A program made the translations under genes and the position numbers. This document shows positions 17,393 to 61,713 of a DNA stretch of 64,000 bases, in pieces. The notes below the pieces were generated by a model, which worked only from the letters and a program-made list of their open reading frames with translations, searched no databases and was not told the DNA's origin. Source of the stretch: Paraburkholderia aromaticivorans (lineage in GTDB: Bacteria > Pseudomonadota > Gammaproteobacteria > Burkholderiales > Burkholderiaceae); contig NZ_CP051514.1 in NCBI RefSeq assembly GCF_012689525.1, forward strand, positions 1,798,001 through 1,862,000, written 5' to 3'. The stretch's first letter is position 1, and each line of letters begins with the position of its first letter.

Positions 17393-17420
17393 CAATTTGT
17401 CACTCGAGAAACGCCGATTC
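17393..17420 (+). promoter_or_regulatory. Conserved 28-bp upstream element, copy A
   Basis: Reads CAATTTGT, CA, CTCGAGAA, then ACGCCGATTC. It lies 79 bases upstream of the SDR start. Four further copies stand in front of other catabolic genes (27273, 31685, 56884, 61671/61713) in the same orientation relative to the gene. It matches copy B in 21 of 28 positions. Confidence 0.65.
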
Positions 17421-17517
17421 ACCGTTGGAGAAGTGTCAGAGAAGGAGCGTACGGCAGCCCCGCGGCATGCCATCGCACGCTCGCCATAGTCCAGCCTACT
17501 CCGGGCATCAATAAGGC

Positions 17518-18303
17518 TCAGCGCGTGAACTTCCTGAACTCCGGTTTGCGTTTCTCGAGGAAGGCCTTCACTCCTTCACGAGACTCTTCCGAGTCGTACA
17601 TGTAGGACAGAGTCTGCATGCCCATCCAACTGATGGCTCGGATGCTCTCCGTATCGGCATTGAACGACCGCTTGGCCAGGGCGATCGCCGCCGGGCTGTG
17701 CTCGAGGATCTGCGCACACCAGCGCGCCACCTCGGCGTCGAGTTCCTCGTCAGGTACAACGGCATTGACGAGTCCCATGGCCTCTGCCTCGCGCGCGCTG
17801 TAACGCTTGCACAGGTACCACATTTCGCGGGCCTTCTTCTCGCCGACGATACGGGAGAGATAGGCAGTGCCAAAGCCAGGATCGACCGATCCGACTCTCG
17901 GCCCTACCTGCCCGAACTTGCTGCTCTCGCTGGCAATCGTTAGATCGCAGAGCGTCGCCAGCACATTGCCGCCGCCGATCGCATAACCGTGCACCCGGGC
18001 GATGACCGGCTTGGGCACGTCGCGGATGATCGATTGCAGTTCCTCAACCGGAATGCCGATCGCGCCGCGTCCGTCATACTGGCCGTTGTGCGCGCTTTGA
18101 TCGCCGCCGGTACAGAACGCGCGGCCGGCGCCGGTCAGGACGATCACGCCAATTGATTTGTCCCAACCGGCCGTCGAGAAGGCGTGAATCAACTCCTCGG
18201 CAGTTTCCGCTCGCATCGCGTTGAGCACGTTCGGCCGGTTGATCGTGATCGTGGCAACGCCTGCGTTGACCTTGAAAACGATGTCGTGGTATTCGCGGCT
18301 CAT
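17518..18303 (-). CDS. badI: BadI-like 2-ketocyclohexanecarboxyl-CoA hydrolase (crotonase fold)
   Basis: 261 residues, ATG at 18303. Crotonase-fold features are FCTGGDQSAHNG, GYAIGGGNVLATLCDL (oxyanion hole) and FGQVGPRVGSVDPGFGTAYLSRIVGEKKAREMWYLCKRYSA. The last two segments and the tail EKRKPEFRKF are diagnostic of the MenB/BadI branch and match what I recall of Rhodopseudomonas BadI. BadI opens the ring of 2-ketocyclohexanecarboxyl-CoA to pimeloyl-CoA (known). Neighbours are an acyl-CoA ligase upstream and an SDR downstream, as in bad/ali clusters. A generic enoyl-CoA hydratase is less likely; a MenB role is unlikely with no menaquinone genes near. Confidence 0.75.
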   Translation of the reverse strand: MSREYHDIVFKVNAGVATITINRPNVLNAMRAETAEELIHAFSTAGWDKSIGVIVLTGAGRAFCTGGDQSAHNGQYDGRGAIGIPVEELQSIIRDVPKPVIARVHGYAIGGGNVLATLCDLTIASESSKFGQVGPRVGSVDPGFGTAYLSRIVGEKKAREMWYLCKRYSAREAEAMGLVNAVVPDEELDAEVARWCAQILEHSPAAIALAKRSFNADTESIRAISWMGMQTLSYMYDSEESREGVKAFLEKRKPEFRKFTR

Positions 18304-18381
18304 GAAAATTTTCCCTGGTTACTGGCGCACTGCGGTTCATGCCCGCCGTGTGCCTATGTCGGATTGCGAGGATCTTCGCGC

Positions 18382-20370
18382 TCAATGTTCCCGCGTCGCG
18401 CGCACGGCGGCGGCGAGCGTTTCGATCGCTTCAGGATTGGCCAGCGATGAAATATCCCCCGGTGGCTGACCGACGAAGACGGCCCGCACGACGCGGCGCA
18501 TGATCTTCATGTTGCGGGTCTTCGGCAGGTCCGGCACGAAAACCACTGCCGATGGCCGGAATGCCACGCCGAGACCGACGACAACCGCTTCGGACAGTTT
18601 CTTGCCGGTCTCCGGCGTCGCGGCGACACCCTGCATCAGCGTTGCCACGAGCACCAAAGATTCGCCCTTCACGGCGTCGGGTACCCCGATCGCGGCGACC
18701 TCGGCCGCGAGGCACGTTGCGCTGACCAGCGCCTCGACCTCGGACGGACCGGTCCGCTTTCCTGCGATCTTGAGCGTGTCGTCGGAGCGGCCAAGGATGG
18801 TCCAGTAACCGTCGCTGTCGATATGCGCACGGTCACCGTGCCACCACACGCCAGGCACTTTGCTCCAGTAACTCTCAATGTAGCGCTCCGAGTCGTGCCA
18901 CAGTCCGCGCGTCAGACCGATCGACGAACGACGCAGCACGAGTTCACCTGTGCCTCGGGCGCCGACCGAGCGCCCGGTTTCATCGACGATATCCGCGCCC
19001 ATACCCGGCACCGGACCCGCGAACGAACATGGTTTCATCGGATGCAGCACCGTGCCGGTCACGATGCCGCCGCCTACTTCGGTGCCGCCGCAATAGTTGA
19101 TGATCGGCGCGCGTTTTCCGCAGACCTTTTCAAACATCCAGTGCCACGCGTCTGCGTTCCAGGCCTCGCCGGTCGACAACGCGATGCGCAGCGACGACAG
19201 GTCATATTTTTCGATGCCCGCGCCGCCCGCCTGGATAAAGCTGCGGACGATGGTCGGCGCAATGCCAAGCACGCTGACCCGGTTCTCTTCGATCAGGCGC
19301 CAGAACCGGCCGGTATCGGGAAAATCGTGCGCGCCTTCGGCCATCACCATCGTCGCGCCCAGCAGAGTCGTCGAATAGATCAGGATCGGGCCGACCAGCC
19401 ACCCCATATCGCTCATCCACATCATCCGGTCGCTCGCCTTGTAGTCGGCGCACAGCCCCATGTCGAGCGCGAGCTTCGTGATGAAGCCGCAATGGCTGTG
19501 CACCGTGCCCTTCGGCTTGCCGGTGGTGCCGGACGTGTACATCACCATCATCGGCGCGTCGGCATCGACCATGGTGGTTGGCGCGTCGTCCGCGCGACCC
19601 GCACAGATCTCCTGCCACCAGCGATCGCGATCCGCGTCCCAGGGCAACGCGCTATCGATGTTCTTCAGCACAACCACGTGACGCAGCGCCGGCACGTCCT
19701 GCACGGCGAGATCGACCGTCGGTTTCATGTCGATGCGTTTGCCGCGGCGCCACGTACCGTCGGCCGTCAACAGACAGACTGCGCGCCCGTCGTTCAGACG
19801 CGAAGCGATAGCGGCAGGACCGAAGCCCGAAAAGAGCGGCAAGACGATACCGCCGATCTTCGAGATTGCGAGCAAGGCGGCGGCCGCTTCCGGCACCATC
19901 GGCATGTACACGCCGATCACGTCGCCCGGCCCGAAACCCAGTGCGCGCAGGCCCTCGGCGAGGCGGCTCGTCTGCGCACCCAGTTCCGCGTAGCTCCAGC
20001 GGCGCTTCTTGCCGTCCTCGCCCTCCCACACGACCGCGTCCTTCGATGCGTGCGCTTCACCCTCGTGGCGGTCGAGACAATTGAGCACCGCGTTGCCCGT
20101 CGCATCCACGCACCACTTCGTCCATTCGACGCCTTGGCTGTCGTCGAATACGCGTGAATACGGGCGATCGAAACGAATGCCCATGTGCGCGATCACCTCG
20201 TTCCAGAAATGCTCCGGCTGGGTGTCGGCAAGCTCGAGCAGTTTCCGGTACCCATCCGGATTTGCCTCGTCGATGCCGAGCCGGCGCATGAACGCGGCAA
20301 GATTGCTCGATTGCGCGAGTTCCGGGTCGGGACGCCAGACGATTTCCGCGTTGTCGTTAACCTGTTCCAT
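18382..20370 (-). CDS. Acyl-CoA synthetase (acetyl/acetoacetyl-CoA synthetase type, ANL superfamily)
   Basis: 662 residues, the length of Acs/acetoacetyl-CoA synthetase-type ligases. The ATP-binding motif YTSGTTGKPKGTVHSH is near residue 280, NYCGGTEVGGG is the adenylate-binding loop, GDRAHIDSDGYWTILGRSDDTLKIAGKR the hinge region, and PKTRNMKIMRRVVRA carries the C-terminal catalytic Lys. It activates a carboxylic acid to its CoA thioester at the cost of ATP to AMP. The position just upstream of badI suggests that the free acid entering the pathway is its substrate; chain type cannot be read from sequence. It probably has its own promoter, since 375 bases separate it from etfA. Confidence 0.85.
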   Translation of the reverse strand: MEQVNDNAEIVWRPDPELAQSSNLAAFMRRLGIDEANPDGYRKLLELADTQPEHFWNEVIAHMGIRFDRPYSRVFDDSQGVEWTKWCVDATGNAVLNCLDRHEGEAHASKDAVVWEGEDGKKRRWSYAELGAQTSRLAEGLRALGFGPGDVIGVYMPMVPEAAAALLAISKIGGIVLPLFSGFGPAAIASRLNDGRAVCLLTADGTWRRGKRIDMKPTVDLAVQDVPALRHVVVLKNIDSALPWDADRDRWWQEICAGRADDAPTTMVDADAPMMVMYTSGTTGKPKGTVHSHCGFITKLALDMGLCADYKASDRMMWMSDMGWLVGPILIYSTTLLGATMVMAEGAHDFPDTGRFWRLIEENRVSVLGIAPTIVRSFIQAGGAGIEKYDLSSLRIALSTGEAWNADAWHWMFEKVCGKRAPIINYCGGTEVGGGIVTGTVLHPMKPCSFAGPVPGMGADIVDETGRSVGARGTGELVLRRSSIGLTRGLWHDSERYIESYWSKVPGVWWHGDRAHIDSDGYWTILGRSDDTLKIAGKRTGPSEVEALVSATCLAAEVAAIGVPDAVKGESLVLVATLMQGVAATPETGKKLSEAVVVGLGVAFRPSAVVFVPDLPKTRNMKIMRRVVRAVFVGQPPGDISSLANPEAIETLAAAVRATREH

Positions 20371-20745
20371 CCTGTCTCTCTCTCCGTGCGCGGTGGCCGC
20401 TCCCTTCAGGGGGCCCTTTGCGGGTGATGTGTTGCTTCTGATTGTTCATGCAAAAACGTCTCGCGAGGCAGCGATGCAAAGCGCCCGTTGGTCACGACGG
20501 GCGCATGCGGGCACCATGCCGCGAAGCTTGTCCCAATGCTACGAACTGTGGCATCGATCTGCAATTGACGAATCACGAAGGGCGGGTTCTGCACTGGCGA
20601 AGCAGTTGCTTCAGATGCGATGAGGCGACGTTTGCATACGGGGCAAACGTTCAGGTATGGAAACGATGGGTTGGCGCAGCATGTCGCGGGGCTTCGAGCG
20701 TTTCCGCGAGCGAGCATGGCATCACGATACGTACTGCGGTGGAAC
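20371..20745. other. Intergenic region with a weak copy of the 28-bp element
   Basis: No supportable gene in 375 bases. At 20561-20588 a sequence CAATTGACGAATCACGAA followed by GGGCGGGTTC resembles the 28-bp element (16 of 28 against copy B), again oriented as in front of the other minus-strand genes. Probably the promoter region of the acyl-CoA ligase. Confidence 0.35.
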
Positions 20746-21678
20746 TTAGAGCGCTGTTTCGAGTTGCGGCACGAGCGTAAAGAGATCGCCGACCAGACCG
20801 TAATCGGCAACGCTGAAAATCGGCGCCTCTGGGTCCTTGTTGATTGCCACGATCACCTTCGAGTCTTTCATCCCGGCCAGATGCTGAATCGCACCCGAGA
20901 TACCGACGGCCACGTACAGCTGCGGCGCGACGATCTTGCCGGTCTGACCAACCTGATAGTCGTTCGGTACGAAGCCCGCATCGACTGCCGCGCGCGAGGC
21001 ACCGAGTGCGGCCTGGAGTTTGTCCGCTAGCGGTTCGAGTACCTTCGTGTAGTTCTCGCCGTTGCCCAGACCGCGGCCGCCCGAAACGATGATCTTCGCC
21101 GAGGTCAGTTCCGGACGGTCCAGCTTCGTTACTTCACGGCTCACGAACTGAGACAGACCGGTATCCGCTGCCGCTTCAATCTTCTCGACCGCGGCGCTGC
21201 CGCCTTCTGCCGCAATCGGGTCGAAACCGGTCGTGCGGACCGTGATGACCTTGATCGGATCTTGAGATTGAACCGTCGCGATGGCGTTACCGGCATAGAT
21301 CGGACGCTCGTACGTGTCCGCACTGTCTACAGCCGTGATGTCGCTAATCTGCGCGACATCGAGCTTTGCGGCAATACGCGGCGTGATGTTCTTGCCAAAA
21401 GCCGTCGCCGGCGCAAGGATGTGTGAGTAGTCTTTCGCGATGTTCAGCACCGTCGCTTCGACGTTTTCCGCGAGGCCCGCTTCGAGTTGGGGCGCGTCGG
21501 CCAGCAGCACCTTCGACACACCTGCAATTTTCGCTGCTGCGTCAGCAGCCGCCTGCGCGTTGTGCCCTGCCACCAGCACGTGAATGTCGCCACCAATCTT
21601 CTGCGCCGCTGCGATCGTATTCAGTGTCGCAGCCTTGATCGACGCGTTGTCGTGTTCCGCCAATACAAGATTCGTCAT
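20746..21678 (-). CDS. etfA: Electron transfer flavoprotein, alpha subunit
   Basis: 310 residues. The C-terminal FAD-binding domain is clear: SGGRGLGNGENY, AVDAGFVPNDYQVGQTGKIVAPQLYVAVGISGAIQHLAGMKDSKVIVAINKDPEAPIFSVADYGLVGDLF. It forms a heterodimer with EtfB and takes electrons from acyl-CoA dehydrogenases to pass them to ETF-quinone oxidoreductase. It lies 22 bases behind etfB. A dedicated ETF fits the three acyl-CoA dehydrogenases in this window. Confidence 0.96.
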   Translation of the reverse strand: MTNLVLAEHDNASIKAATLNTIAAAQKIGGDIHVLVAGHNAQAAADAAAKIAGVSKVLLADAPQLEAGLAENVEATVLNIAKDYSHILAPATAFGKNITPRIAAKLDVAQISDITAVDSADTYERPIYAGNAIATVQSQDPIKVITVRTTGFDPIAAEGGSAAVEKIEAAADTGLSQFVSREVTKLDRPELTSAKIIVSGGRGLGNGENYTKVLEPLADKLQAALGASRAAVDAGFVPNDYQVGQTGKIVAPQLYVAVGISGAIQHLAGMKDSKVIVAINKDPEAPIFSVADYGLVGDLFTLVPQLETAL

Positions 21679-21700
21679 TTCGTCTGTCTCCGTGTTCTAC

Positions 21701-22456
21701 TTAAAGCACCTTGGCTTCGTTCTTCAGCTTCTCGACCAGCGCCTGCACATCGGCCACCTTCACGCCGGCGGAGCGCTTAGGCGGCTCGGCGACTTTCAGC
21801 GTCTTCAGGCGGGGCGTCACATCGACGCCGAGATCCTCCGGCCTGATCGTGTCCATCGGCTTCTTTTTCGCCTTCATGATGTTCGGCAACGTCACGTAGC
21901 GCGGCTCGTTCAGGCGCAGGTCGGTCGTGATCACAGCGGGCAACGTCAGCGACAGCGTTTCAGCACCGCCGTCCACTTCGCGCGACACCGTAGCCTTACC
22001 GTCTGCGACGACAACCTTCGAGGCAAACGTCGCTTGCGGCAAGCCTGCCAGCGCAGCCAGCATCTGGCCAGTCTGGTTCGAATCGTTGTCGATCGCCTGC
22101 TTGCCGAGAATGATCAGCTGCGGCTGTTCCTTGTCGACGAGCGCCTTCAGGATCTTCGCGACCGCGAGCGGCTCGACGCTGTCTTTCGACTCGACGAGGA
22201 TCGCCCGATCCGCGCCGATCGCCAGCGCTGTGCGCAGCGTTTCCTGCGCCTGCGCGACGCCCACCGACACGGCGATCACTTCGGTCGCTACGCCCACTTC
22301 TTTCAGACGCACGGCCTCTTCTACTGCGATTTCGTCGAACGGGTTCATCGACATCTTCACGTTGGTGAGATCGACGCCCGATTGATCGGATTTCACGCTG
22401 ACCTTCACGTTTGCATCGACCACTCTTTTGACTGGCACCAGGATTTTCACGCTCAT
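21701..22456 (-). CDS. etfB: Electron transfer flavoprotein, beta subunit
   Basis: 251 residues. Typical EtfB sequence: [14 protein letters not shown] at the N-terminus, [46 protein letters not shown] (the signature and AMP site), and [20 protein letters not shown] (recognition loop with the Leu that docks in the dehydrogenase). Partner of EtfA, directly upstream. AAAGGAG precedes the ATG. Normal in every visible respect. Confidence 0.96.
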
Positions 22457-22489
22457 CTCCTTTCTTCAATGTTGCTATGCAAATGCAAA

Positions 22490-23278
22490 CTAAGCTTCGC
22501 CGCGCAGATAGGCCGAAGCCTCGTCCTCGACGCGCTGCCATATCTCGTAGGCCATCGGCCGTTCCGCCTCCTCGGCCAGGTGCCCCACGAGCCCAATCGC
22601 TCGGGCCATCACCCCAAAGCCGCGCACGATCCGCCATGGAAAGCCGAACTCGCAGCAGATCGCGCCGATCGCGCCGGTTGCATTGACCGGCAGCGACTTG
22701 CCCGAGACGCGCTCCGCTTCGGCGCCGATCAGCTGCATCAGCTTCACGTAATCGCCAGACAGGCCGTTTTGCGCGGCCATTTCGAAGAGCCGCGGCGTAC
22801 GCGGATCGACCGGCTTGTGAAGGGGATGCCCGATGCCGGGAATCGTCGCGCCGCGCCCGCGCCACGCGGCAACCGTGTCGTGTGCGAGTTGCTCAAGGTC
22901 CTCATGTTTCGTGCTATACGGCAGTGCCTCGGACAGCATCCGGCACGCCCCTTCCATGCTGCCGACGAACACCGAGCCGAGCCCGCAAAGACCGGCCGCG
23001 ACCGCGGCCTGCAGCGATTCGGGGGCGCCTGCATAGGTCATGCGCGCGACGATCGCGCTCGGTGTCATGCCGTGTTCGACGAGCGTGATGAGGATCGCGT
23101 TGAACACCGCCGATTGCTCCGGTGTCGCGGCCTTGCCGGTCAGTTGCAGGAACGCGAAATCACCGAGGTTCATATGCCCCAGTATTTCGTTGGGCAAATC
23201 CTTGCCGCGCACGACGATGCGATCGGGCAGGCTGTAGGCGATATCGGATCGCACCAGCGGTTTCGGTTGACGGACCAT
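22490..23278 (-). CDS. Citrate-synthase-like protein (citryl-CoA lyase type)
   Basis: 262 residues, shorter than citrate synthase (about 430) and comprising essentially the catalytic core. GIGHPLHKPVDPRTPRL holds the conserved His; NATGAIGAICCEFGFPWRIVRGFGVMARAIGLVGHLAEE holds the second half of the site. Proteins of this type are annotated as citryl-CoA lyase or non-citrate synthases. In a beta-oxidation operon it could make or cleave a C-C bond of a hydroxy-dicarboxylyl-CoA. True substrate unknown. Confidence 0.75.
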   Translation of the reverse strand: MVRQPKPLVRSDIAYSLPDRIVVRGKDLPNEILGHMNLGDFAFLQLTGKAATPEQSAVFNAILITLVEHGMTPSAIVARMTYAGAPESLQAAVAAGLCGLGSVFVGSMEGACRMLSEALPYSTKHEDLEQLAHDTVAAWRGRGATIPGIGHPLHKPVDPRTPRLFEMAAQNGLSGDYVKLMQLIGAEAERVSGKSLPVNATGAIGAICCEFGFPWRIVRGFGVMARAIGLVGHLAEEAERPMAYEIWQRVEDEASAYLRGEA

Positions 23279-23322
23279 GAGTTGCTTCCGTAAAGATCGA
23301 GCCGATTGAACCAGGTAGCGCT

Positions 23323-24192: not shown

Positions 24193-24201
24193 GATGGTCG
24201 G

Positions 24202-24999: not shown

Positions 25000-25030
25000 T
25001 GTGGTGCTCCAATCAGTCGACGGGGTGGGA

Positions 25031-26227: not shown

Positions 26228-26283
26228 GTTGAATTCCTCTCGTTAAAGATGCACGTGTCAGAAGTGGGTGCAGCGATGCCGCG

Positions 26284-27204: not shown

Positions 27205-27272
27205 CACTTCATCTCCTTGATCCGTCGATTGCCTTCAGATGTCTGCAGATTGACGCATGCGTGCAGGCTCGA

Positions 27273-27300
27273 CAATTTGTATCTCGCGAATCCGGGATTC
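27273..27300 (+). promoter_or_regulatory. Conserved 28-bp upstream element, copy B
   Basis: Reads CAATTTGTATCTCGCGAA followed by TCCGGGATTC, 69 bases upstream of the MFE-2-like dehydrogenase start. Its right half (CGCGAATCC/GGGATTCGTCGCG) is itself an imperfect palindrome, as expected for a dimeric regulator. Confidence 0.65.
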
Positions 27301-27437
27301 GTCGCGCGTTAACCGGATGCGCCGCGACACGCTCGCCTTTCATTCCGCGAGACGAATCGTCCGGAATCAGACCGATCGATCGAAATTGTGCTTGCACATG
27401 GTTCGCAAGCGTTGCCATCAGGACGTCTCCGTACTTT

Positions 27438-27457
27438 ACCTAATTTACGTTAGGTAG
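27438..27457. promoter_or_regulatory. 20-bp operator-like palindrome, copy 1
   Basis: TACCTAATTTACGTTAGGTA has perfect 7-bp arms (TACCTAA/TTAGGTA) around a 6-bp centre. It lies between the divergent MFE-2 operon and the LysR gene. Similar sites occur at 41568-41587 and 44487-44506. The size and symmetry suit a TetR-type dimer; the TetR gene at 42787-43437 is a candidate. Confidence 0.6.
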
Positions 27458-27497
27458 ATTCATGGCGACAATCAAAATGACATTCAGGAATCCCTTC

Positions 27498-28394
27498 ATG
27501 CGTTTCGATCTGATCGATCTCAATCTCTTCACTCACATCGCAGAGGCCAACAGCCTCACGCGCGGTGCAGAGCGTTCGCACTTGTCCCTGCCGGCGGCTA
27601 GTACGCGCGTCAAGAATCTGGAGGAACAGGTCGGCGTCAAGCTGCTGAGCCGCACGAGCCAGGGGGTCAAAGTCACGGCGCCAGGAGAGACGCTGCTTGC
27701 GCACGCGCGCCGCGTGCTGCGGCAACTCGAACAGTTGACCGGAGACCTTCAGGAATACGCGTCCGGCGTCAAGGGGCACGTCCGCGTCTTTGCAAATACA
27801 ACCGCAATGAGCGAGTTCTTGCCCGGCGTGCTGCGCAGCTACCTGGTCAATCATCCGGACGTGACCGTGGACATGCAGGAGCGGCTGAGTCCGGACATCG
27901 TCCGGGCGGTGCAGGAAGGCGTCGTGGACATTGGCATCGTTGCCGGCAATGTGCGCACCGAAGGGCTCGAAGCGATGCCCTATCAGCGCGATCGTCTGGT
28001 CCTCGCCTGTGCGCTGAGCCATCCACTCGCCGCCCATACGCACACGGCCTTTGTCGATACGCTCGAGTACGATTTTGTCGGCCTTCCGGAAGCGAGCGCG
28101 ATCCACAGCTTTCTCAAGCGTGCGGCGGCGGACTTGCAGCGCACGCTGCGCTGGCGTATCCAGGTCAGCAACTTCGAGACCGCCTGCCGGATGATCGAGG
28201 CGAACGTCGGCGTCGGCGTGCTGCCCGAACGCACGGCACGCCGCCACGCAAAGACCATGGCGCTGCGCATCGTCCAGCTCGACGACGATTGGGCCGAACG
28301 CCAACTGCAGATCTGCGTCGCGGATCTCGGCGCGCTGCCGTTGTTCGCACGCAATCTCGTCGATTTGCTCGTCGAGGATGGATTGGGGCGTTAG
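27498..28394 (+). CDS. LysR-family transcriptional regulator
   Basis: 298 residues from the ATG at 27498 (MRFDLIDLNLF, the usual LysR start, AGGA upstream); in-frame ATGs at 27462 and 27477 are possible. The winged helix is at residues about 4-62 (FTHIAEANSLTRGAERSHLSLPAASTRVKNLEEQVGVKLLSR), followed by the effector-binding domain. It is divergent from the catabolic operon that begins at 27204 and shares its intergenic region, so it is a likely regulator of that operon. It ends 24 bases from the end of the convergent AraC-type gene. Confidence 0.92.
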   Translation: MRFDLIDLNLFTHIAEANSLTRGAERSHLSLPAASTRVKNLEEQVGVKLLSRTSQGVKVTAPGETLLAHARRVLRQLEQLTGDLQEYASGVKGHVRVFANTTAMSEFLPGVLRSYLVNHPDVTVDMQERLSPDIVRAVQEGVVDIGIVAGNVRTEGLEAMPYQRDRLVLACALSHPLAAHTHTAFVDTLEYDFVGLPEASAIHSFLKRAAADLQRTLRWRIQVSNFETACRMIEANVGVGVLPERTARRHAKTMALRIVQLDDDWAERQLQICVADLGALPLFARNLVDLLVEDGLGR

Positions 28395-28418
28395 GATTGA
28401 CCGCGGCTCCGTCGCGGA

Positions 28419-29147
28419 TCATGTTGCTGCCGCTTCGGCCGTCGCCGCGCGCCCCTGTTCCGCCGCCGAGGCGGCGAACGACCAGGTGAGCGCGGGATAC
28501 CACGCAAGCGTCGCGATCTGCGACGCGGTGCTGCCGAAACGTTCGTCGAACGCATCATCAAGACGCGCCGCCGAACCGAAGCCGAACTGACCGGCCAGTG
28601 CAGGTAGATTCTGGCGGGCATGAGGCTGCGCGAGCAGAGCCAGCAAAGCGCGCATCAGGCGCTGCTCGCGCAGGATCGCCGTCAAGGCGTTATTTTCGCG
28701 GAACAACTGCGCTTTCAGATGCTGCGTGCTCATCTGCATCCGCTCAGCCGCGAGCGCGACCGACCAGTCGCACGCGGGTTCGCAAAAGACCGCATACGCG
28801 AGAACCGCTCCGAGGGCGGGCGCCGTGCAGGCTTCTCCCACGTCGATGATAGGCGGGACGTCATGCAGTATCAGATGAAGCTCGTACCCGACGCGCGCAT
28901 CGATCAGCGTCGCGCCTTCGTAGTGCACCGTGCGGTACCGCTCGACGACCACCGACTCGCCCTGCGCAAGCACGCCTCGGCGCCGCTCGCCGGCGAGCAG
29001 ATGTTGCCCACGGCGCGCCACGAACTCGACCTGGAACGGTAACCGGATATTGCAGACACGCAGCAGACGCACCCGGCCGGGATGCGATCCGCGGCCAGGC
29101 ACGCGCGCCACGTGTGCGCTTGCCGTCGAGTTGAGCGCGTGCATCAT
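28419..29147 (-). CDS. Short AraC-family transcriptional regulator
   Basis: 242 residues from the ATG at 29147. The C-terminal third carries an AraC-type double helix-turn-helix, recognisable as LAAERMQMSTQHLKAQLFRENNALTAILREQRLMRALLALL and the weaker second half LPALAGQFGFGSAARLDDAFDERFGSTASQIATLA. The N-terminal part is a short cupin-like effector domain. The protein is shorter than the usual 280-320 residues. It lies between the LysR gene and the acyl-CoA dehydrogenase pair and could be one of the factors that recognise the repeated elements. Confidence 0.8.
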   Translation of the reverse strand: MMHALNSTASAHVARVPGRGSHPGRVRLLRVCNIRLPFQVEFVARRGQHLLAGERRRGVLAQGESVVVERYRTVHYEGATLIDARVGYELHLILHDVPPIIDVGEACTAPALGAVLAYAVFCEPACDWSVALAAERMQMSTQHLKAQLFRENNALTAILREQRLMRALLALLAQPHARQNLPALAGQFGFGSAARLDDAFDERFGSTASQIATLAWYPALTWSFAASAAEQGRAATAEAAAT

Positions 29148-29222
29148 GATCGACCTTCCCCGCGTTGCCACTGCCACCCGGGAACCGGACAGCGTTCCAG
29201 AAACCGGGGCAACGCGGCCGGT

Positions 29223-30350: not shown

Positions 30351-30358
30351 GCCCGCTC

Positions 30359-31555: not shown

Positions 31556-31684
31556 CCCAGTGTCCTCCCAAGTGTGCGCGTCACTGACTACGCGCAATCT
31601 GTTCCTTCGTTATTTCGTTCGTTGCGACGCACGACCGCACGACCGCACGATGAATGTGAGTGTGTTGCACCCCGATGAACTGCG

Positions 31685-31712
31685 CAATTTGTATTCGGCG
31701 AAGGCGCGATTT
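31685..31712 (+). promoter_or_regulatory. Conserved 28-bp upstream element, copy C
   Basis: Reads CAATTTGTATTCGGCGAA followed by GGCGCGATTT, 130 bases upstream of the acyl-CoA dehydrogenase pair. It matches copy B in 21 of 28 positions. Confidence 0.6.
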
Positions 31713-31762
31713 TCCATTTTCGAAGTCGATTTCACCCATGGGTACCGCTTCGAAAAACATCG

Positions 31763-47231: not shown

Positions 47232-47248
47232 TCGGCTAATCCTGGACT

Positions 47249-47269: not shown

Positions 47270-47415
47270 GGTACAGCTTGCAGTTCGAACGATTCGAGCG
47301 CTCCGCGCGTTCATTATTGAGCATCTTCCATTGAAGCCAGTCTGTGATCCGGACAGGAAAGTCGCTTTAAATTGGCTAGCGACGCGCGGTGGAATGCGCA
47401 GCGTTGACGCGGCGG

Positions 47416-48411
47416 CTAAACCGACCGTGACAAATTATCCTGCTGCGTGCGTGCGTCAGTTGTGAGGTGTGATTCGTCGCTCCCAAGCGGTTGCGGCCGC
47501 TCAGTGAGTTGTTTGATCAATGCTGTGGTCGCGCTCGACAAGGCCTTCCCGCGTTGCGTGCCGATATGAATGCTCCGATGGGCCCACGGCTCTGCCAATG
47601 CCACAGTCGATAGCCGCTCGTAATCCTCGAGCGACAGCATGCACTCAGGCTGAATCGTCACGCCGAGTCCCTCCTGAACCAGACTGCGTGCCGCCTCGAC
47701 GCTATTCACGTTGTATTTCGGGTGGAGTTCCCGTCCTGCGAGCGCCGCCGCTTTGTGCAACTCGGTCATTAATGTGGTATTGGGTGCGATGCCGATAATG
47801 TCCTCCTGCATCAGGTCGACCAGTGTGACGCTCGCGCGCTCGCTCAACGGATGACCGAGCGGCACTACCGCCACAAGATCGTCGGTGCGGTACTCGACGC
47901 TGTCGATCGCCTCGTTCGCGAGATTTGCAGTGGCGACGAACACCCCTACGTCGATGTCGCCCGAGGCGACCGCACGCATCACCTTCGCGTTGACGTCTTC
48001 GTGCAATTCGACCTGCACCATGGGGAAATCCCGCGTGAATTCGGCAATTTCGCGCGCGAGATACTGGATAATGATCGAGCCGGTTGCACCAATGCCCACG
48101 TGCCCGGAGACACCGTCTATCAGTTCGCCGATGTCGCGCCGTATCTCGTCGAGACTAGCGAACATGACCCGAACGTGCCGCGCGAGTACCTCGCCTGCCT
48201 GGCTCGTCACGACGCCTTTCGGGTTCCGGTCGAAAAGCCGGATGCCCGCTACATCCTCCAGATCCTGGATTCGCTTTGTTGCTGCTGAGGCGGCGATATT
48301 CTCCCGAATAGCCGCGCGTCCGATCTGCCGTTCCTCTACAACCGAAAGAAACAGTTTAAGAGTGAAAAGGTCCACCCTTCGGATCAAGCCCTGAATGCTG
48401 AGTCCGCTCAT
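47416..48411 (-). CDS. LysR-family transcriptional regulator
   Basis: 331 residues from the ATG at 48411 behind AAGGAGG. The winged helix is RRVDLFTLKLFLSVVEERQIGRAAIRENIAASAATKRIQDLEDVAGIRLFDRNPKGVVTSQAG; the effector domain follows (LVAVVPLGHPLSERASVTL). Convergent with the porin gene and upstream of the ABC transporter genes in the direction of transcription, from which it is separated by 260 bases. It may regulate either. It resembles CynR/GltC-like regulators in general build only. Confidence 0.92.
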   Translation of the reverse strand: MSGLSIQGLIRRVDLFTLKLFLSVVEERQIGRAAIRENIAASAATKRIQDLEDVAGIRLFDRNPKGVVTSQAGEVLARHVRVMFASLDEIRRDIGELIDGVSGHVGIGATGSIIIQYLAREIAEFTRDFPMVQVELHEDVNAKVMRAVASGDIDVGVFVATANLANEAIDSVEYRTDDLVAVVPLGHPLSERASVTLVDLMQEDIIGIAPNTTLMTELHKAAALAGRELHPKYNVNSVEAARSLVQEGLGVTIQPECMLSLEDYERLSTVALAEPWAHRSIHIGTQRGKALSSATTALIKQLTERPQPLGSDESHLTTDARTQQDNLSRSV

Positions 48412-48672
48412 CACTCCTCCTTTCCACGTCTGATTTTTTATGCCGCGATACTTGGCTCAGACTAGCGGGCAGGCCGGTGGACGTCAATCGACAGGGACAG
48501 GTAACGGCTCTATTTTTGTATGGGAAATACCCTTGCGCGACGGATGTGCGGCCGGTTGACGTCTGGCGGTCTTTCCCCGATTCCATGCCCGCATCGGATT
48601 TACCGCCAGAGTGAGTGTGGCATCCTCGGCAAATGTCGGCCGCGTGGCCTTTCATCCGCGCCTTGGGCTCGC

Positions 48673-49926: not shown

Positions 49927-50011
49927 GTCTCCTCCTGTAGTGGCCCGCCGCGCGCGGCTATGCCAATACCGCTTGGCGCGTGGCCAGGTGTTCGCCCCAA
50001 GTAACACGGGG

Positions 50012-52516: not shown

Positions 52517-52519
52517 GAC

Positions 52520-53401: not shown

Positions 53402-53443
53402 GATTGCTGCGTCCTTGATTCGTATCGAGCCTCACAGGCGGCC

Positions 53444-54700: not shown

Positions 54701-54744
54701 TACGGCTCCAGTATCACTTCTCGTGAGGTTGGTCTGCTGTGTCG

Positions 54745-55902: not shown

Positions 55903-55971
55903 ATCTGTCTCCCATACAACCGATCCGGACGTCTGGATGCGCCCGTGAGAAATAATTCGCTTCGGGCAGCT

Positions 55972-56754
55972 TCACCAGCCGCCGAAGGACAAGCCACCGT
56001 TGACGCTGACAGTCTGCCCGGTGACCTGCGAGCTCTGGTCCGATGCGAGGAAAACGGCGACGCGCGCAACCTCTTCGGCGGTCGGCGCCCGTCCAGATGG
56101 GAAGCGCTCCAGTGCCTTTGAGAAAAGTCCCGTCTGGAAAGTCTTCTCTCCAAAGATCCGATCCCACGACGGCGTGTCGGACGTCAGCGTCAACGACACG
56201 CTGTTGACGCGGATCTGCCAGCGAGAGAATTCCTTCGCCAAGGTCTTGGTCATCAGAATGACCCCCGCACCGAACGCACCGACCACCGATTCGCCTGGCG
56301 TTGCGTGACGACCGGCATCGGTGCCGACCATGACGACCGAGCCACCGCGCACCCGCAAATAAGGCAATGCGGCGTGAACAGGGAAGATCCGGGCAAAGAA
56401 GCGCGAATTGAACGCGGACACCAGTTCCGACCCGCTCATGTCAGCGAAAGGCATCGGCCGCACCGCGCCCTGCGCGCCGGAACTCACGACCACGTCGATA
56501 CCGCCATTGATTGCCGCGGCGGCGCTTGCCACTTTCAAGGTGGCTTCATAGTCGGTGGTGTCGCCGATCACAAAGCTCACCCGGTCAGAGACTTTCTTGA
56601 GTTCGGCAACGGCCTTCTCGCCTTTTTCCTCGGAGCGGCTATTAATCACCACGATGGCGCCGTTGGCCGCGAGCTTTTCAGCCACGCGCAACCCGAGCCC
56701 GCCAGATGCACCGGTAATGAGGGCGACCTTGTTTTCAAAATCCGCGTATTGCAC
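55972..56754 (-). CDS. Atypical short-chain dehydrogenase/reductase, paralogue of 16532-17314
   Basis: 260 residues from a GTG at 56754 with AAGGAGACG upstream; the longer frame is not supported. The cofactor motif TGASGGLGLRVA is intact. As in the other copy, the expected Tyr-x3-Lys is absent (GESVVGAFGAGVILMTK: Tyr is Val, Lys is Gly), and the Ser position reads GT. Everything from QYADFENKV to the final GGLSFGGW is strongly conserved between the two, so selection has retained the altered site. Probably a non-classical enzyme or a CoA-thioester binding protein. Carries its own 28-bp element upstream. Confidence 0.82.
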   Translation of the reverse strand: MQYADFENKVALITGASGGLGLRVAEKLAANGAIVVINSRSEEKGEKAVAELKKVSDRVSFVIGDTTDYEATLKVASAAAAINGGIDVVVSSGAQGAVRPMPFADMSGSELVSAFNSRFFARIFPVHAALPYLRVRGGSVVMVGTDAGRHATPGESVVGAFGAGVILMTKTLAKEFSRWQIRVNSVSLTLTSDTPSWDRIFGEKTFQTGLFSKALERFPSGRAPTAEEVARVAVFLASDQSSQVTGQTVSVNGGLSFGGW

Positions 56755-56883
56755 TTCCGTCTCCTTGAATGTGTTCTGAACGGTGCGTCGATCTTCGGCA
56801 CCTCTTGATCCGCCGTGGCTGCGCTGCCTTCCAACTCTTGTCGCCGCGTTTGTAGAGATCGTATGAGGCGCGAGTTCGAACTT

Positions 56884-56912
56884 CAATTTGTAAGTGCCGA
56901 ACGCCATGATTC
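56884..56912 (+). promoter_or_regulatory. Conserved 28-bp upstream element, copy D
   Basis: Reads CAATTTGTAAGTGCCGAA followed by CGCCATGATTC, one base longer than copies A-C. It lies 130 bases upstream of the SDR start and 206 bases upstream of the divergent flavoprotein gene, so it could serve both. Confidence 0.55.
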
Positions 56913-57117
56913 GTTTTTCACGAATTCGGACGATCGGGACGAGATCGCCCGCGGAGCCCATAAAACTAGATCCGTCTCATTCGTCGAACGCGAAACCCGA
57001 GGTTCGCCAGTTGCAAGTTGAATCCGCCTGCCCTCGTCCATAGCATTCATCCATGCACTCTCGCGATCGCCCTTCATCGCGGGAGCAGCGACGCCTATTT
57101 CCCAAGGAGACACGCAA

Positions 57118-58206
57118 ATGAATACATTGAAGACACCGATCTGCGACTTGCTCAACATCGAATACCCCATTCTTCAGGCCGGCATGGGTGGCGTCGCATT
57201 CGGCCCCCTGGCCGCGGCGGTTTCCAAGGCCGGTGGACTCGGAACCATCGCCGCGATTTCCCCGACTCCGGAACGGGTCGAGCAGGAGATCATCCTGGCC
57301 CGCAGCCTGACCGACAAACCGATCTGTGTAGATATCGGTTTCCCGTTGCGCGCACCAAAAGAGAAATCCGACATCGAGCTTCCGGAATTGCCCGGCCCGC
57401 TCAAGCAACTCCATCAGGAAATCGAGGCACTCGGCGTCGAGATCAAGTCGGCCGACGACCAGGCCATGAGCATCGAAGATGCCAGGACGAAGCTGGAGAT
57501 CTGTTTCAGGCACGGCGTGGAGGTGATTGCCTGCGCCCTCGGCACGCCAAAGTGGGTGGTTGAGGCATGCCACGCGCGTGGCGTGAAGGTCATCAGCATC
57601 GTCGGCCGTGCGTCACATGCCCAGACTGCGATCCGCAATGGCACCGACATCGTGGTCGTCCAAGGAACGGAAGGCGGCGGTCACACCGGCGATATCGGTC
57701 TCATCACCCTGCTTGCGGAAGTGCTGGAGTTCTCGACAGTGCCGGTGGTCGCCGCCGGCGGTATCGTCAACGGATCGCAGATCGCGGGTGTCCTGACCCA
57801 GGGCGCGCAAGGTGTCTGGGTCGGCACGCGCTTCATCGGCAGTCAGGAGTCGAGCGTCGGGCCCAATTACAAACAGTCGCTGGTCGAGGCTGAAAACGAC
57901 AGCACGATACGTTCGCTGCTGTTCGATGGCCTCTATGTGCGTCAACTGCAAAATCGCTTCACTGAAGTTTGGGAAGGTCATGAGGCTGAGCTCCAGCCGT
58001 ATCCCATTCAGCGCATCGTAATCGCACCGTCGCGCTTCGCGGCCGCCGCAGCCGACCTGAAAGATCACCAGGCCTTACCCGCTGGACAGGGCTCCGGCCT
58101 GATCCGCGACTTGCCGCCCGCTGGCGAGTTGTTGCACCGGCTGGTCGACGAAACCGTCGAGGCACTCCGCAAAGCCCAGCAACGCATCCAGCTCAAGGTC
58201 GCCTGA
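57118..58206 (+). CDS. Nitronate monooxygenase-like FMN enzyme
   Basis: 362 residues, ATG at 57118 with AAGGAGACAC upstream. The TIM-barrel features of the nitronate monooxygenase/2-nitropropane dioxygenase family are clear: YPILQAGMGGVAFGPLAAAVSKAGGLGTIA, VVVQGTEGGGHTGDIGLITLL with the conserved His, VVAAGGIVNG and GVWVGTRFIGSQES (FMN phosphate). The family also includes FabK-like enoyl reductases. In this CoA-rich setting, oxidation or reduction of an acyl-CoA is as likely as nitronate oxidation. Followed two bases later by an acetyl-CoA hydrolase/transferase gene. Confidence 0.85.
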   Translation: MNTLKTPICDLLNIEYPILQAGMGGVAFGPLAAAVSKAGGLGTIAAISPTPERVEQEIILARSLTDKPICVDIGFPLRAPKEKSDIELPELPGPLKQLHQEIEALGVEIKSADDQAMSIEDARTKLEICFRHGVEVIACALGTPKWVVEACHARGVKVISIVGRASHAQTAIRNGTDIVVVQGTEGGGHTGDIGLITLLAEVLEFSTVPVVAAGGIVNGSQIAGVLTQGAQGVWVGTRFIGSQESSVGPNYKQSLVEAENDSTIRSLLFDGLYVRQLQNRFTEVWEGHEAELQPYPIQRIVIAPSRFAAAAADLKDHQALPAGQGSGLIRDLPPAGELLHRLVDETVEALRKAQQRIQLKVA

Positions 58207-58208
58207 TC

Positions 58209-59492
58209 ATGCTCGTTCTCGATCATCCGGACGAGCTCGACCTGCCAGCACTGCTGCGGCCGCAGGACGCCATTGTGTGCAGCCAGGGACTGGCCGAACC
58301 GGTTTCCCTGACGACGCGGCTAGTTCAGCAAAGAGCCACGTTCGGGCCGGTCCAGCTGTTCCTCGGCCCGACATTCTCCGACACGTTCCGCCCCGAACAC
58401 GGCGATGCGATCGCCTTCCGGAGCTATTGCGGCACGGGCCGGAACGCGGCGCTCAAGTCGGCCGGCGTGCTGGACATCGTCCCATCGCACTACTCTGAAC
58501 TCCCAGGCCTTTTTGCCACGGGCGCGCTGCCGTGCGACGTGGCACTGTTGACGGCCTCGGAGCCCGATGCGCAGGGCCGCTTCAACCTCGGCCTGACCCG
58601 CGACTATGTGATCGAGGCAGCGCGCCGTGCGCGGCTCGTCATCGTCGAGGTCAGCAGTCGTGTTCCGTGGGTATTTGGGGCAGAACTGCCGTCCGACATC
58701 CAGCCGGACATTGTGGTGCGTACCGACCGTGAACCATTGTCGCTTGTGTCGAAGAGCAGCGGCGCGGCGAGCGAGGTCGAGCGCGCCATTGCAGCGCGAG
58801 TCAGCCAACTGATCCCCGACGGCGCGGCGCTGGAGCTTGGCATCGGCGTACTGCCCGATCTCGTTTTGCAGGCGCTGCGCGGCCACCGCGATCTCGGCAT
58901 TCATTCGGGGGTGATCGGCGACGGCGTCGTCGAACTGATGGAGGCGGGCGTGATCAACAACACGCGCAAGCTCGTCGACACAGGTACGACGGTCGCGGGG
59001 CTACTTATGGGCAGCCGGCGCCTGCTCGACTTCGCACATCGCAACCCCTGCATTCGACTTGCGCCGGCATCGCACACACACGACCCGGGTGTGTTGCGGG
59101 CAATCCCTAACTTCGTCGCGCTCAACGGCGCTATCGAAGTGGACCTGACAGGCCAGGTCAACGCGGAAAGCCTCAACGGCAGCTATATCGGCACGGTCGG
59201 CGGCCAGCTCGATTTCGTTCGGGGCGCTAACGGGTCACCTGGTGGGCGCTCAATCATGCTGCTGCCTTCGACCGCCCGCAATGGCACGCTCAGCCGTATT
59301 GTTCCCCGTATGCCCGACAACGTCGTGACCACGCCGCGCAGCGATGCGGACGTCATCGTGACCGAATGGGGTGCAGCAGAATTGCGCGGCAAGAGTCTGC
59401 GAGAGCGTGTGGCGGCCATGATTGCAATCGCGCACCCGCACTTCCGCGACGCGCTCAGGCACTCGGACGAAACGCTCGAGGCATTGAGCTAA
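58209..59492 (+). CDS. Acetyl-CoA hydrolase/transferase-family protein, copy 1
   Basis: 427 residues. Class I CoA-transferase/hydrolase family (Cat1, 4-hydroxybutyrate CoA-transferase type). SQGLAEPVSL, then ELGIGVLPDLVLQAL, ALNGAIEVDLTGQVNAESL with the catalytic Glu, GGQLDFVRGANGSPGGRSIMLLPSTARNG and VTEWGAAELRGKSLRER are the family blocks. Starts two bases after the flavoprotein gene. It probably exchanges CoA between acetyl- or succinyl-CoA and the pathway acid. A close paralogue is at 61804-63093. Confidence 0.88.
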   Translation: MLVLDHPDELDLPALLRPQDAIVCSQGLAEPVSLTTRLVQQRATFGPVQLFLGPTFSDTFRPEHGDAIAFRSYCGTGRNAALKSAGVLDIVPSHYSELPGLFATGALPCDVALLTASEPDAQGRFNLGLTRDYVIEAARRARLVIVEVSSRVPWVFGAELPSDIQPDIVVRTDREPLSLVSKSSGAASEVERAIAARVSQLIPDGAALELGIGVLPDLVLQALRGHRDLGIHSGVIGDGVVELMEAGVINNTRKLVDTGTTVAGLLMGSRRLLDFAHRNPCIRLAPASHTHDPGVLRAIPNFVALNGAIEVDLTGQVNAESLNGSYIGTVGGQLDFVRGANGSPGGRSIMLLPSTARNGTLSRIVPRMPDNVVTTPRSDADVIVTEWGAAELRGKSLRERVAAMIAIAHPHFRDALRHSDETLEALS

Positions 59493-59513
59493 CAGCGACG
59501 CGGTCATCATGCT

Positions 59514-60473
59514 TTAGCTTGTCACGTAGACAGACGTACTCTCCGAAGGCAAGAGCGCAGCATGGCTGTTCGCATGCTCGACTTCCTTGATCGGAGTGCG
59601 GCCGAATAGACGCTTGAAATCCCGGCTGAACTGCGACGGACTTTCATAGCCGACTTCAGCGGACGCTGCCGCGGCGCCGATGCCGTTGTGAAGCATCAGC
59701 AAGCGCGCTTTCTGAAGACGCGTAGTCTTCAGATACTGCAATGGCGACGTCGCCGTGACGGCCTTGAACTTTGCATGAAAGCCGGCAACGCTCATGTGCG
59801 CTTCGTCCGCCAGCATCCCCACGCTCAGATTGCTGGAAAAATTGACATGGATACGCCGCAGCGCGTGGGCGATCTGGCCGAAATCGCTGCGACGCACCAA
59901 CGCTGCGCGCAACACGTTACCCTGCTCCCCCGTCAGTACCCGGTAACAGATTTCACGGACGATCGAGGGGCCAAGGACCTCCGCGTCAACGGCACTGCAC
60001 AACGATTTGAGTAGACGCGTGACAGCATCGCTCATTTCATCAGACAAGGCGGTGGCGAAGATGCTGGTCGGCGCAGCACTAGGGCGTCCGTATCGTGTGT
60101 CGAGCAACTCCAGCAGATCCACGAGGACGTCGATATCGACGCGCACGCAAACGGCGAACATCGGGGCGTCCTCGCTTGCCTGGGTCTCACATTCGAGCGG
60201 CAGCGGCACGGACAATACCAGGTACTGGTTAGGGTCATAGGTGTAGACGCGTTCACCGACATAAGCACGTTTGCGGCCCTGGCAGATGAAAACGATACTG
60301 GGCTCGTACATGATCGGCGTTCGTGCGATCGACCGGTTCGCGCGCACGAATTTGACGGAATCCAGACGCGACTGCGTCGAACCCTCGTTGGGAGCAAGCG
60401 TGGCCAATAAATCGAGCATCCCCAATGGGGAGCAACCGTTCGCACTGGCGGCGTCATGCTGGCAATCGGTCAT
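59514..60473 (-). CDS. AraC-family transcriptional regulator
   Basis: 319 residues. An N-terminal AraC-type effector domain (MYEPSIVFICQGRKRAYVGERVYTYDPNQYLVLSVPLPLECE, as in YqhC-like regulators) is followed by the DNA-binding domain RRIHVNFSSNLSVGMLADEAHMSVAGFHAKFKAVTATSPLQYLKTTRLQKARLLM and VGYESPSQFSRDFKRLFGRTP. Convergent with the preceding gene (21 bases) and divergent from the hydrolase at 60647, which it may regulate. It is flanked by the two acetyl-CoA hydrolase-family paralogues. Confidence 0.93.
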   Translation of the reverse strand: MTDCQHDAASANGCSPLGMLDLLATLAPNEGSTQSRLDSVKFVRANRSIARTPIMYEPSIVFICQGRKRAYVGERVYTYDPNQYLVLSVPLPLECETQASEDAPMFAVCVRVDIDVLVDLLELLDTRYGRPSAAPTSIFATALSDEMSDAVTRLLKSLCSAVDAEVLGPSIVREICYRVLTGEQGNVLRAALVRRSDFGQIAHALRRIHVNFSSNLSVGMLADEAHMSVAGFHAKFKAVTATSPLQYLKTTRLQKARLLMLHNGIGAAAASAEVGYESPSQFSRDFKRLFGRTPIKEVEHANSHAALLPSESTSVYVTS

Positions 60474-60646
60474 TACGGCGTTTGCTCCAGATATTAAAGA
60501 GCCAGAATTCTTTCATATTGGTTCCGTCTCGTCTGCAGACTTGTAGAAACAGGCAAGATTCTTCGAGATTTCATCATTCGCTTTTGAGCCCTCGACTTCT
60601 AACATTGATTCACCGGCGCCTCGCCGATTTCACTAAAGGATGACCG

Positions 60647-61561
60647 ATGAAAACGATCGTCACGTTTACCAGTAACGGTCTGAAAATTGCAGGCCATCTC
60701 TATTTTCCAGACGATTACAAGGACGGCGAAAAACGGCCCGCAGTCGTGACGAGCCATCCGTTCGGCGGCGTGAAGGAGCAGACAGCCGGACTCTATGCGC
60801 AGAAGCTTGCCAACAAGGGCTTCGTGACGCTGGCGTTCGACGCCTCCTATCAGGGCGAAAGCGGAGGAGAGCCGCGCTACCTGGAAGATCCCTTCACGCG
60901 CGCCGAAGACATCAAGTCGGCGGTAACGTTTCTCACCACGCGCCCCGAAGTAGACGCCGAGCGTATTGGGGCACTGGGTATCTGCGCCTCAGGCGGCTAC
61001 GTGCCCTATACGGCGCAAACCGAACGGCGCATCAAGGCCGTTGCCGCGGTGAGCGGAGCCGACATGGGCGCGCTGTTCCGCGAAGGACTCGGCGGCGGAG
61101 GCAGCACAGCGGCGCTGCAGGCCATGCTGGAGCAGTCGGGTAAAGCGCGCACTGCAGAGGCAAAGGGCGAACCGGCCCACCTCGAACACGTCGTGCCCAA
61201 CACGCCTGCGGAAATCACCAAGGAGACGCCGACCCTGTATGCCGAAGGCACCGACTATTACCGCACGCCGCGAGCACAGCACCCCAATTCGCCGAACTGG
61301 TTTGTGTTCAGGAGTGTCGACCGGATCGCCGCCTATTCGTCCTACGACCGTGTCGATCTGATTTCGCCGCACCCGTTGCTGATGATTGCCGGCACGAACG
61401 CCGACACGCGCTATTTCAGTGAACTGGCAATCGAAAAGGCGCAGGAACCCAAAGAGCTGTTCCTGATCGAGGGTGCATCGCATATCGACCTGTACGACAA
61501 GGAAGAATATGTCGGGCCGGCGGTGGAAAAGCTCGATAGCTTCTTCAAACAGTATCTGTGA
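60647..61561 (+). CDS. Alpha/beta hydrolase (YcjY/dienelactone hydrolase type)
   Basis: 304 residues from the ATG at 60647. VVTSHPFGGVKEQTAGLYAQKLANKGFVTLAFDASYQGES is the strand and oxyanion region, GICASGGYVPYTA the nucleophile elbow, and EGASHIDLYDKEEYV carries the late His. This is the YcjY-like branch near dienelactone hydrolases. It lies divergent from the AraC regulator. Substrate unknown; regulation by the AraC protein is suggested by the divergent arrangement. Confidence 0.85.
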   Translation: MKTIVTFTSNGLKIAGHLYFPDDYKDGEKRPAVVTSHPFGGVKEQTAGLYAQKLANKGFVTLAFDASYQGESGGEPRYLEDPFTRAEDIKSAVTFLTTRPEVDAERIGALGICASGGYVPYTAQTERRIKAVAAVSGADMGALFREGLGGGGSTAALQAMLEQSGKARTAEAKGEPAHLEHVVPNTPAEITKETPTLYAEGTDYYRTPRAQHPNSPNWFVFRSVDRIAAYSSYDRVDLISPHPLLMIAGTNADTRYFSELAIEKAQEPKELFLIEGASHIDLYDKEEYVGPAVEKLDSFFKQYL

Positions 61562-61670
61562 GCGCAGAGCGGCGCAAGCGCGTCGCGATCGCGCAATGGC
61601 CTCGGGGCGCGTGTCAGGGTCGCCCCTTTCGCCTCCCCCTGACCGCGTTTCCATAGCCCACGGGCTGATT

Positions 61671-61713
61671 CAATTTTTAACTCGCGAAGCGACGCTTCTC
61701 GACACACAAATTG
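61671..61713. promoter_or_regulatory. Conserved upstream element, copy E, as a back-to-back inverted pair
   Basis: On the plus strand it begins CAATTTTTAACTCGCGAAGCG (61671-61691, shown in part); on the minus strand it begins CAATTTGT, GTG, TCGAGAAGCG at 61713. The two half-elements meet around ACGC and form an interrupted palindrome of 43 bp. The minus-strand half has the same orientation relative to the gene at 61804 as copies A-D have to theirs. The palindrome supports binding of a dimer. Confidence 0.65.

Follow-up and report, generated by a model that had tools for sequence, protein, structure and literature searches.

A recurrent two-box element before acyl-CoA catabolic operons of Paraburkholderia aromaticivorans is probably a LysR-type promoter served by related regulators

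Results

We analysed a window of 64,000 nucleotides from Paraburkholderia aromaticivorans (contig NZ_CP051514.1, positions 1,798,001 to 1,862,000; coordinates below are those of the window). Its catabolic locus comprises genes for an acyl-CoA synthetase, ETF, an MFE-2-type short-chain dehydrogenase/reductase (SDR), PimC/D-like dehydrogenases, several CoA-transferases and a branched-chain-type transporter. An initial annotation of this DNA had described a conserved 28-bp element in front of at least five transcription units (copies A to E) and a weaker copy at 20561. All six copies lie where they had been reported, and the identities given for the pairs A/B and B/C (21 of 28 positions) are correct; A and C agree in 17 of 28. 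However, the window holds eight sites, since two more, N and H, had been missed, and the supposedly weaker copy, here site F, is a good full element that is conserved in Paraburkholderia polaris.

Read in the direction of the gene, all eight sites share one layout, in which box 1, TTC-N9-GAA, is followed by box 2, TTC-N9-RAA, at a spacing of 22 bp (23 bp in D and H); box 1 starts with TTA or TTT instead of TTC in B and E. Box 2 runs into TTG, the first bases of a -35 hexamer, and a -10 hexamer stands 17 bp further on, of the class CANNCT in B and C and TANNNT in the six other sites. The A2 and T6 of this hexamer are placed exactly 17 bp past the -35 in 8/8 sites, compared with a maximum of 3 when eight positions were drawn at random 20,000 times. 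They are missing at three half-site matches outside the eight-site count, namely the second arm of E and the matches at 64288 and 92401. By convention, transcription starts 7 nt after the -10 hexamer. With the predicted start set there, the box centres fall at -65 (box 1) and -43 (box 2), and the predicted 5′ leaders measure 33–97 bp for A–E and 159 bp for F. The starts predicted in this way are close to 16282 (N), 17360 (A), 20529 (F), 27240 (B), 31652 (C), 56851 (D), 57053 (H) and 61746 (E). Each copy looks, from its sequence, like a promoter of the LysR type with a unit of 66 bp, larger than the 28-bp element described before, and the GATTC motif that had been read as the trailing part of that element is the edge of the second box, 22 bp away. 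The common orientation of the copies relative to their genes was borne out, as would follow if the element is the promoter itself.

At the left of the cluster, site N (16289..16354, minus strand; box 1 16340-16354, TTCGTCAAAGACGAA; box 2 16318-16332; -35 TTGAAG; -10 TAACAT) today faces an insertion sequence (IS) transposase gene at 15011-16102. Site A (17367..17432, minus strand; box 1 17418-17432, box 2 17396-17410, -10 TAGGAT) is the putative promoter of the SDR gene 16532-17314, and site F (20536..20601, minus strand; box 1 TTCGCCAGTGCAGAA, -10 TAGCAT) that of the acyl-CoA synthetase gene 18382-20370. Placed between its operon and the divergent LysR-type gene LysR27462 (27462..28394, plus strand), site B (27247..27312, minus strand; box 1 TTAACGCGCGACGAA, -10 CAATCT) would drive the genes for SDR, thiolase, ECH, MaoC and citryl-CoA lyase. 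Site C (31659..31724, minus strand; -10 CACACT) precedes the PimC/PimD-like acyl-CoA dehydrogenase pair and AraC28419 (28419..29177, minus strand), a rare AraC-type protein encoded by the last gene of this operon; its distal box is of the TTC type, yet its -10 is CANNCT, and it travels with AraC28419. Two candidate promoters diverge further to the right: site D (56858..56924, minus strand; box 1 56910-56924, TTCGTGAAAAACGAA; -10 TACGAT) for the SDR gene 55972-56754 and two family III CoA-transferases, and site H (56980..57046, plus strand; -10 TAGCAT) for an NMO-like gene (57118-58206) and a Cat1-like gene (58209-59492). Finally, site E (61674..61739, plus strand; -10 TAGTAT), the palindromic copy, stands before a Cat1-like CoA-transferase gene (61804-63093); judged by eye it is the most symmetric copy, but only one arm of what had been described as a back-to-back pair has a -10 in register. 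With the gene starts used here, A–E lie 66–130 bases from their genes, close to the 69–130 bases given earlier. All copies are intergenic, as had been stated, although for D this holds only with the start at 56754, since a longer open frame reaches 56961.

The left edge of the cluster is rich in mobile elements. Three phage-type integrases and transposases of the DDE_Tnp_1/DUF772, IS91-like and IS240-like types are encoded at 1848-9331 and 15011-16102; the IS240-like transposase occupies the place expected for the gene served by site N, and a YhcG/DUF1016-type PDDEXK nuclease gene (14161-15018) adjoins the transposase.

The core of the element, CAATTTGT-N3-TCG-N-GAA, is concentrated in the window, which represents 0.6% of the 10.84-Mb genome scanned. 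All three exact matches of the genome and five of its six matches at one mismatch or fewer lie here, which speaks against random placement. At two mismatches or fewer, the core is found 75 times genome-wide, compared with 26 for a reversed control, and 7 of the 75 are in the window, where 0.4 would be expected by length. Sites N (at 16315) and H (at 57020, minus strand) were added by a matrix scan of 106 kb that covered the window and its flanks. The matrix score of H (19.0) barely exceeds the best score in 400 kb of control sequence (18.6) and that of a match beyond the window, at 92401 (18.7); it is the promoter context that supports H, and 92401 has no such context. A composite pattern of boxes and hexamers matches nine times in the window at up to three mismatches, where shuffled sequence would give 0.08 matches; the nine are the eight sites and the second arm of E. 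Since this pattern was built from the window sites themselves, independent support has to come from conservation and from other genomes.

Several candidates were rejected. Neither the core match at 64288 nor the one that the matrix gave at 92401 has a -35 and -10 in register, and a core match in genome G007 falls inside an apparent coding region. Reading the copies as one 43-bp inverted repeat was dropped because a direct repeat of 22 bp scored better. All eight-site counts exclude the second arm of E as well as the match at 64288. The latter overlaps, as a two-mismatch core match, a perfect palindrome, CACATTGTG-N9-CACAATGTG (L011:288-314), between a CoA-transferase-like reading frame and the LysR-type gene LysR64501 described below, and this palindrome may serve in autoregulation or be a different operator.

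We also asked how symmetric the boxes are. Counting all base pairs, the dyad z-scores for box 1, the midpoint and box 2 were 5.6, 6.5 and 4.1 in the window sites (with D and H shifted by one base) and 9.8, 8.3 and 6.8 in a set of 16 selected from other genera, but these values are partly determined by the search pattern. When the pairs fixed by the pattern were removed, the scores became 2.4, 3.4 and 0.9 in the window, where other centres reached up to 2.8, and 5.6, 3.8 and 2.8 in the 16 selected sites of other genera, where other centres reached up to 3.2 and the value of 5.6 for box 1 was the highest of all. The dyad of box 1 appears to stand on these counts, above all outside the window, while box 2 is not established as a dyad. 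Box 1 has the T-N11-A dyad expected of a recognition box of LysR-type transcriptional regulators (LTTRs).

Conservation at orthologous places supports the earlier proposal of a shared regulatory element before mostly non-homologous catabolic operons. P. polaris, a member of the window's own genus (L073, G440/G470), keeps orthologous sites A, N, F, E, B and C, with counterparts of N at C124:6080, A at C124:4019, F at C124:515 and E at C82:276134; for D and H, no counterpart was found in the P. polaris stretches fetched. B and C are also conserved in two Burkholderia genomes, that of Burkholderia sp. SRS-46 (G315) and G332, and the intergenic DNA around these two sites diverges more than the boxes. 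In SRS-46 the B site precedes the citryl-CoA lyase gene, beside LysR27462. The distal box of B is altered in P. polaris, from TTAACGCG to TTCACGCG, which would fit capture of the site by the other of the LTTR types described below. A third C-like site is found 3′ of the AraC28419 ortholog in SRS-46 (L089:731), G332 (L092:19874) and P. polaris (L119:10484); the one in G332 precedes an AMP-binding acyl-CoA synthetase gene.

The regulators that fit the sites best had not been among those proposed. They are LysR47416 (47416..48414, minus strand; assigned by Pfam), a candidate regulator of the sites with a TTC box and a TANNNT hexamer, and its paralog LysR64501, encoded 500 bp past the window end at 64501-65511 (L011:501-1511). 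The two proteins are 57% identical and have near-identical putative recognition helices, at the position where we presume these helices to lie, so that they likely overlap in binding. The only member of the LysR47416 clade in P. polaris is 91% identical to LysR64501. Since N, A, F and E are nevertheless conserved in this species, LysR64501 is the simplest candidate for the four sites. The previously proposed LysR27462, likewise assigned by Pfam, is the best candidate for site B and fits no other site; LysR27462-type genes occur together with TTA-box/CANNCT sites in G315, G332 and G176. LysR 31763, which had also been proposed, falls in a different clade, and P. polaris lacks it beside site C. 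Site C could be served by either LTTR, or could need AraC28419. None of the NCBIfam LTTR models shown passes its cut-off for LysR27462, LysR47416, LysR31763 or LysR64501; LysR47416 reached at best 131 of the 415 bits required, and LysR27462 136 of 250.

To follow the element beyond these relatives, we scanned 398 genomes of the family with the composite pattern alone, allowing one mismatch. Matches were found in 122 genomes, compared with 8 for the reversed control (genome counts were made by hand from the listed rows). Among the 122 are 27 genomes of genus g35, mostly with one shared, different-looking sequence (TTGCCGAAACGGCAA...TAGAAT; for example G139:C15:13004) that is probably an unrelated conserved promoter, and 15 small g37 genomes, where the control also matches 5; without these two genera, 80 remain. 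The P. aromaticivorans genome itself has only two such matches outside the window, G000:C3:2798557 and G000:C3:3887004, the former of the TTA-box type and with near-identical counterparts in G317, G389 and G408.

The first 15 regions inspected had been picked as clusters of several matches or as neighbours of AraC genes, and the finding of an LTTR of the LysR47416/LysR27462 clade in 14 of them is not a blind count. Eight (G413, G309, two in G156, G404, two in G342, and G399) encode several relatives of window genes along with a LysR47416-like gene, six have a LysR27462-like gene (46–77%), and G388 has neither type. For example, G413:C393 encodes relatives of SDR16532 (93%), Cat1_61804 (79%), the thiolase, ETF, the acyl-CoA synthetase and the branched-chain-type transporter.

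A further 20 loci were then taken in listing order, one per genome and skipping genomes already fetched, from genera g36 (9), g34 (9) and g27 (2), with which the listing opens; for G245 the second match was used, and the stretches of G408 and G389 span both listed matches. Within the 12–20 kb fetched per locus, a clade LTTR, counted at about 300 bits or more, was present at 14/20 loci but in none of 38 control regions (18 regions, some of them as short as 0.5, 3, 12, 14 or 18 kb, and 20 stretches of the P. aromaticivorans genome). At these 14 loci the subtype of the site tracks the LTTR subclade without exception: LysR47416-type genes accompany TTC-box/TANNNT sites in 11/11 cases and LysR27462-type genes accompany TTA-box/CANNCT sites in 3/3. 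Viewed from the side of the regulators, 11 chosen genomes contain 14 members of the LysR47416 clade (E<=1e-70), and each of the 14 lies within 8.5 kb of a site at two mismatches or fewer; for LysR47416 itself this site is D. No member at this threshold was found in G315, G332 or G390; the one-mismatch sites of G315 (3) and G332 (2) are all B/C-like, and G390 has none.

Discussion

Taken together, the architecture of the sites, their conservation and their association with one clade of LTTRs suggest that the eight sites are probably LysR-type promoters and that at least two subclades of this clade serve the locus. Each site would be an activator-dependent promoter of the sigma-70 type. The LTTR, as a tetramer, would be anchored at the upstream box, TTC-N9-GAA at about -65, and in the presence of an inducer, presumably an acyl-CoA or acid of the pathway, it would engage the second box, TTC-N9-RAA at about -43 and abutting the -35, and recruit RNA polymerase to the weak -10. 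Six promoters of the TTC-box/TANNNT type (N, A, F, D, H and E) would be controlled by LysR64501 and/or LysR47416, and the TTA-box/CANNCT promoter B by LysR27462.

Several observations weigh against this interpretation. The draft assembly of P. polaris keeps B, with its changed distal box, although the best match to LysR27462 there is only 43% identical, and for B and C this species is an exception to the rule that site subclass follows LTTR subclade. A 92% copy of LysR27462 in G315:C22 has no half-site match within its 3.9 kb. On pBEN, an alphaproteobacterial megaplasmid of Paracoccus versutus (L222), a 48% relative of LysR47416 has no site at two mismatches or fewer in 31 kb; this relative lies alongside ETF, CitE-like and CoA-transferase genes. 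In the fetched stretches of 6/20 further loci (L187, L190, L191, L196, L200 and L201, the last with 12 kb only) there is no clade LTTR; some of these matches look like chance, but L200 resembles a genuine site. The symmetry of box 1 in the window depends on the alignment, as its z-score of 2.4 drops to 0.9 without the one-base shift of D and H, and the dyad of box 2 is weak in both sets of sites once pattern-fixed pairs are removed. Moreover, LTTRs and sites share gene clusters, and they could occur together simply because the locus is linked as a whole.

The initial annotation had taken the element as the signature of one regulator for the whole locus. That a single LTTR, LysR64501 or LysR47416, serves all eight sites would agree with the layout and second box common to them, and also with P. 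polaris, which keeps type-1 sites as well as B and C with one LysR47416-clade member while no LysR27462 ortholog was found. We nevertheless consider this unlikely, because the distal box and the -10 subtype change with the LTTR subclade at all 14 loci and because G315 and G332 carry B and C without a LysR47416-clade gene at the threshold used.

Control by an AraC-type regulator of the locus, AraC28419 or AraC59514, that would bind the repeats spaced by 22 bp as a class II activator over the -35 appears improbable. The geometry suits such a protein, since the direct repeat abuts the -35 and box 2 is scarcely symmetric beyond its ends; moreover, AraC28419 has a predicted fold like that of Rns, CsvR and ToxT, is conserved beside site C in four genomes, and has remote relatives (E about 1e-20 to 1e-23) that flank a site in G308, G422 and G271. 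However, box 1 is a dyad, and neither gene follows the sites. Relatives of AraC28419 are scarce (17 among 7998 scored candidates). They are absent from 12 of the 15 picked regions, the other three having remote ones only (25–28%), and none scores above 100 bits at the 20 further loci, a threshold that remote relatives would not reach. The loci without AraC28419, G413 among them, overturn it as the shared regulator, and it is possible that it acts as a co-regulator limited to C.

AraC59514 has one close ortholog among the 398 family genomes (84%, in G342; the next best is 59%), and a contig scan with this protein revealed no relative. In G342, the ortholog stands without the catabolic locus, and the nearest core match, at two mismatches, is 25 kb away; the composite sites of that genome lie at least 228 kb from it on its contig, beside LysR47416-type genes. 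Only AraC59514 and the neighbouring hydrolase of the G342 stretch match the window. AraC59514 and its divergent hydrolase gene (59511-61559) are found there as a pair at 83% DNA identity, and look like a separate module.

A role of the IclR-type protein 34432, which is related to PcaR, PcaU and PobR, as the shared regulator is very improbable. It is kept at 88% in P. polaris and at 55–68% at G309, G156:C61 and G404, and IclR34432-like proteins score above 290 bits at 4 of the 20 further loci, but none exceeds 100 bits at the remaining 16, no match above 55% identity is found in the G315 and G332 stretches, and none is listed for G413 and G399. A recent origin of the copies by duplication of intergenic DNA, with no regulatory function, can practically be dismissed: the homology of SDR 16532 and SDR 55972 would allow a common ancestry of A and D, but the likeness of the copies is confined to boxes and promoter hexamers while the flanks differ, and the layout recurs in other genera.

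If LTTRs of two subclades do serve these promoters, a scattered motif becomes a promoter model with named candidate regulators, predicted starts and a regulon. Because related loci of other genera are retrieved by the pattern with no recourse to gene similarity, it can be used to map the reach of the pathway and to study how duplicated LTTRs and their operators diverge together. More tentatively, and as a possibility that we would not yet favour over its negation, a large and apparently unstudied LTTR clade of the Burkholderiaceae may have been duplicated together with acyl-CoA catabolic operons, with a common two-box promoter whose activation box was retained while its recognition box and -10 class diverged, and with paralogs that may overlap as a graded, cross-talking switch. 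If this were true, the site would be rigid enough for a DNA pattern alone to find loci of the pathway.

The regulation itself looks like one of a known kind, and it is the set of regulators that is apparently unstudied; among titles and the beginnings of abstracts in PMC full text, which leaves most subscription papers outside, we found no paper treating this LTTR clade or its operator. Class II sites of the AraC/XylS family have a repeat of about two helical turns that abuts the -35. The repeat spacing and the contact with the -35 are the same here; the dyad of box 1 and the fact that AraC genes do not track the sites set the present element apart. Another parallel is offered by regulators of aromatic catabolism in Betaproteobacteria: CatR, ClcR, TfdR, CatM and BenM are described as paralogous LTTRs with similar operators (AkACC-N5-GGTAT for the CatR/ClcR/TfdR type) and suspected cross-regulation (PMC6449761). 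Paralogous LTTRs with similar operators are also what we propose here, and BenM is the top solved-structure match of LysR47416. The operator sequence is another one, and no ring-cleavage or ring-hydroxylating family occurs among the 50 window proteins scanned. Our sites also agree with the general LTTR model of a recognition site (RBS) with T-N11-A near -65 and an activation site (ABS) at -35, the regulator being encoded in or beside the target locus, as outlined in a further article (PMC8407307). They differ from it in that both boxes share the ends TTC-N9-RAA, that the spacing is fixed at 22–23 bp and that the element recurs before several operons of a single locus.

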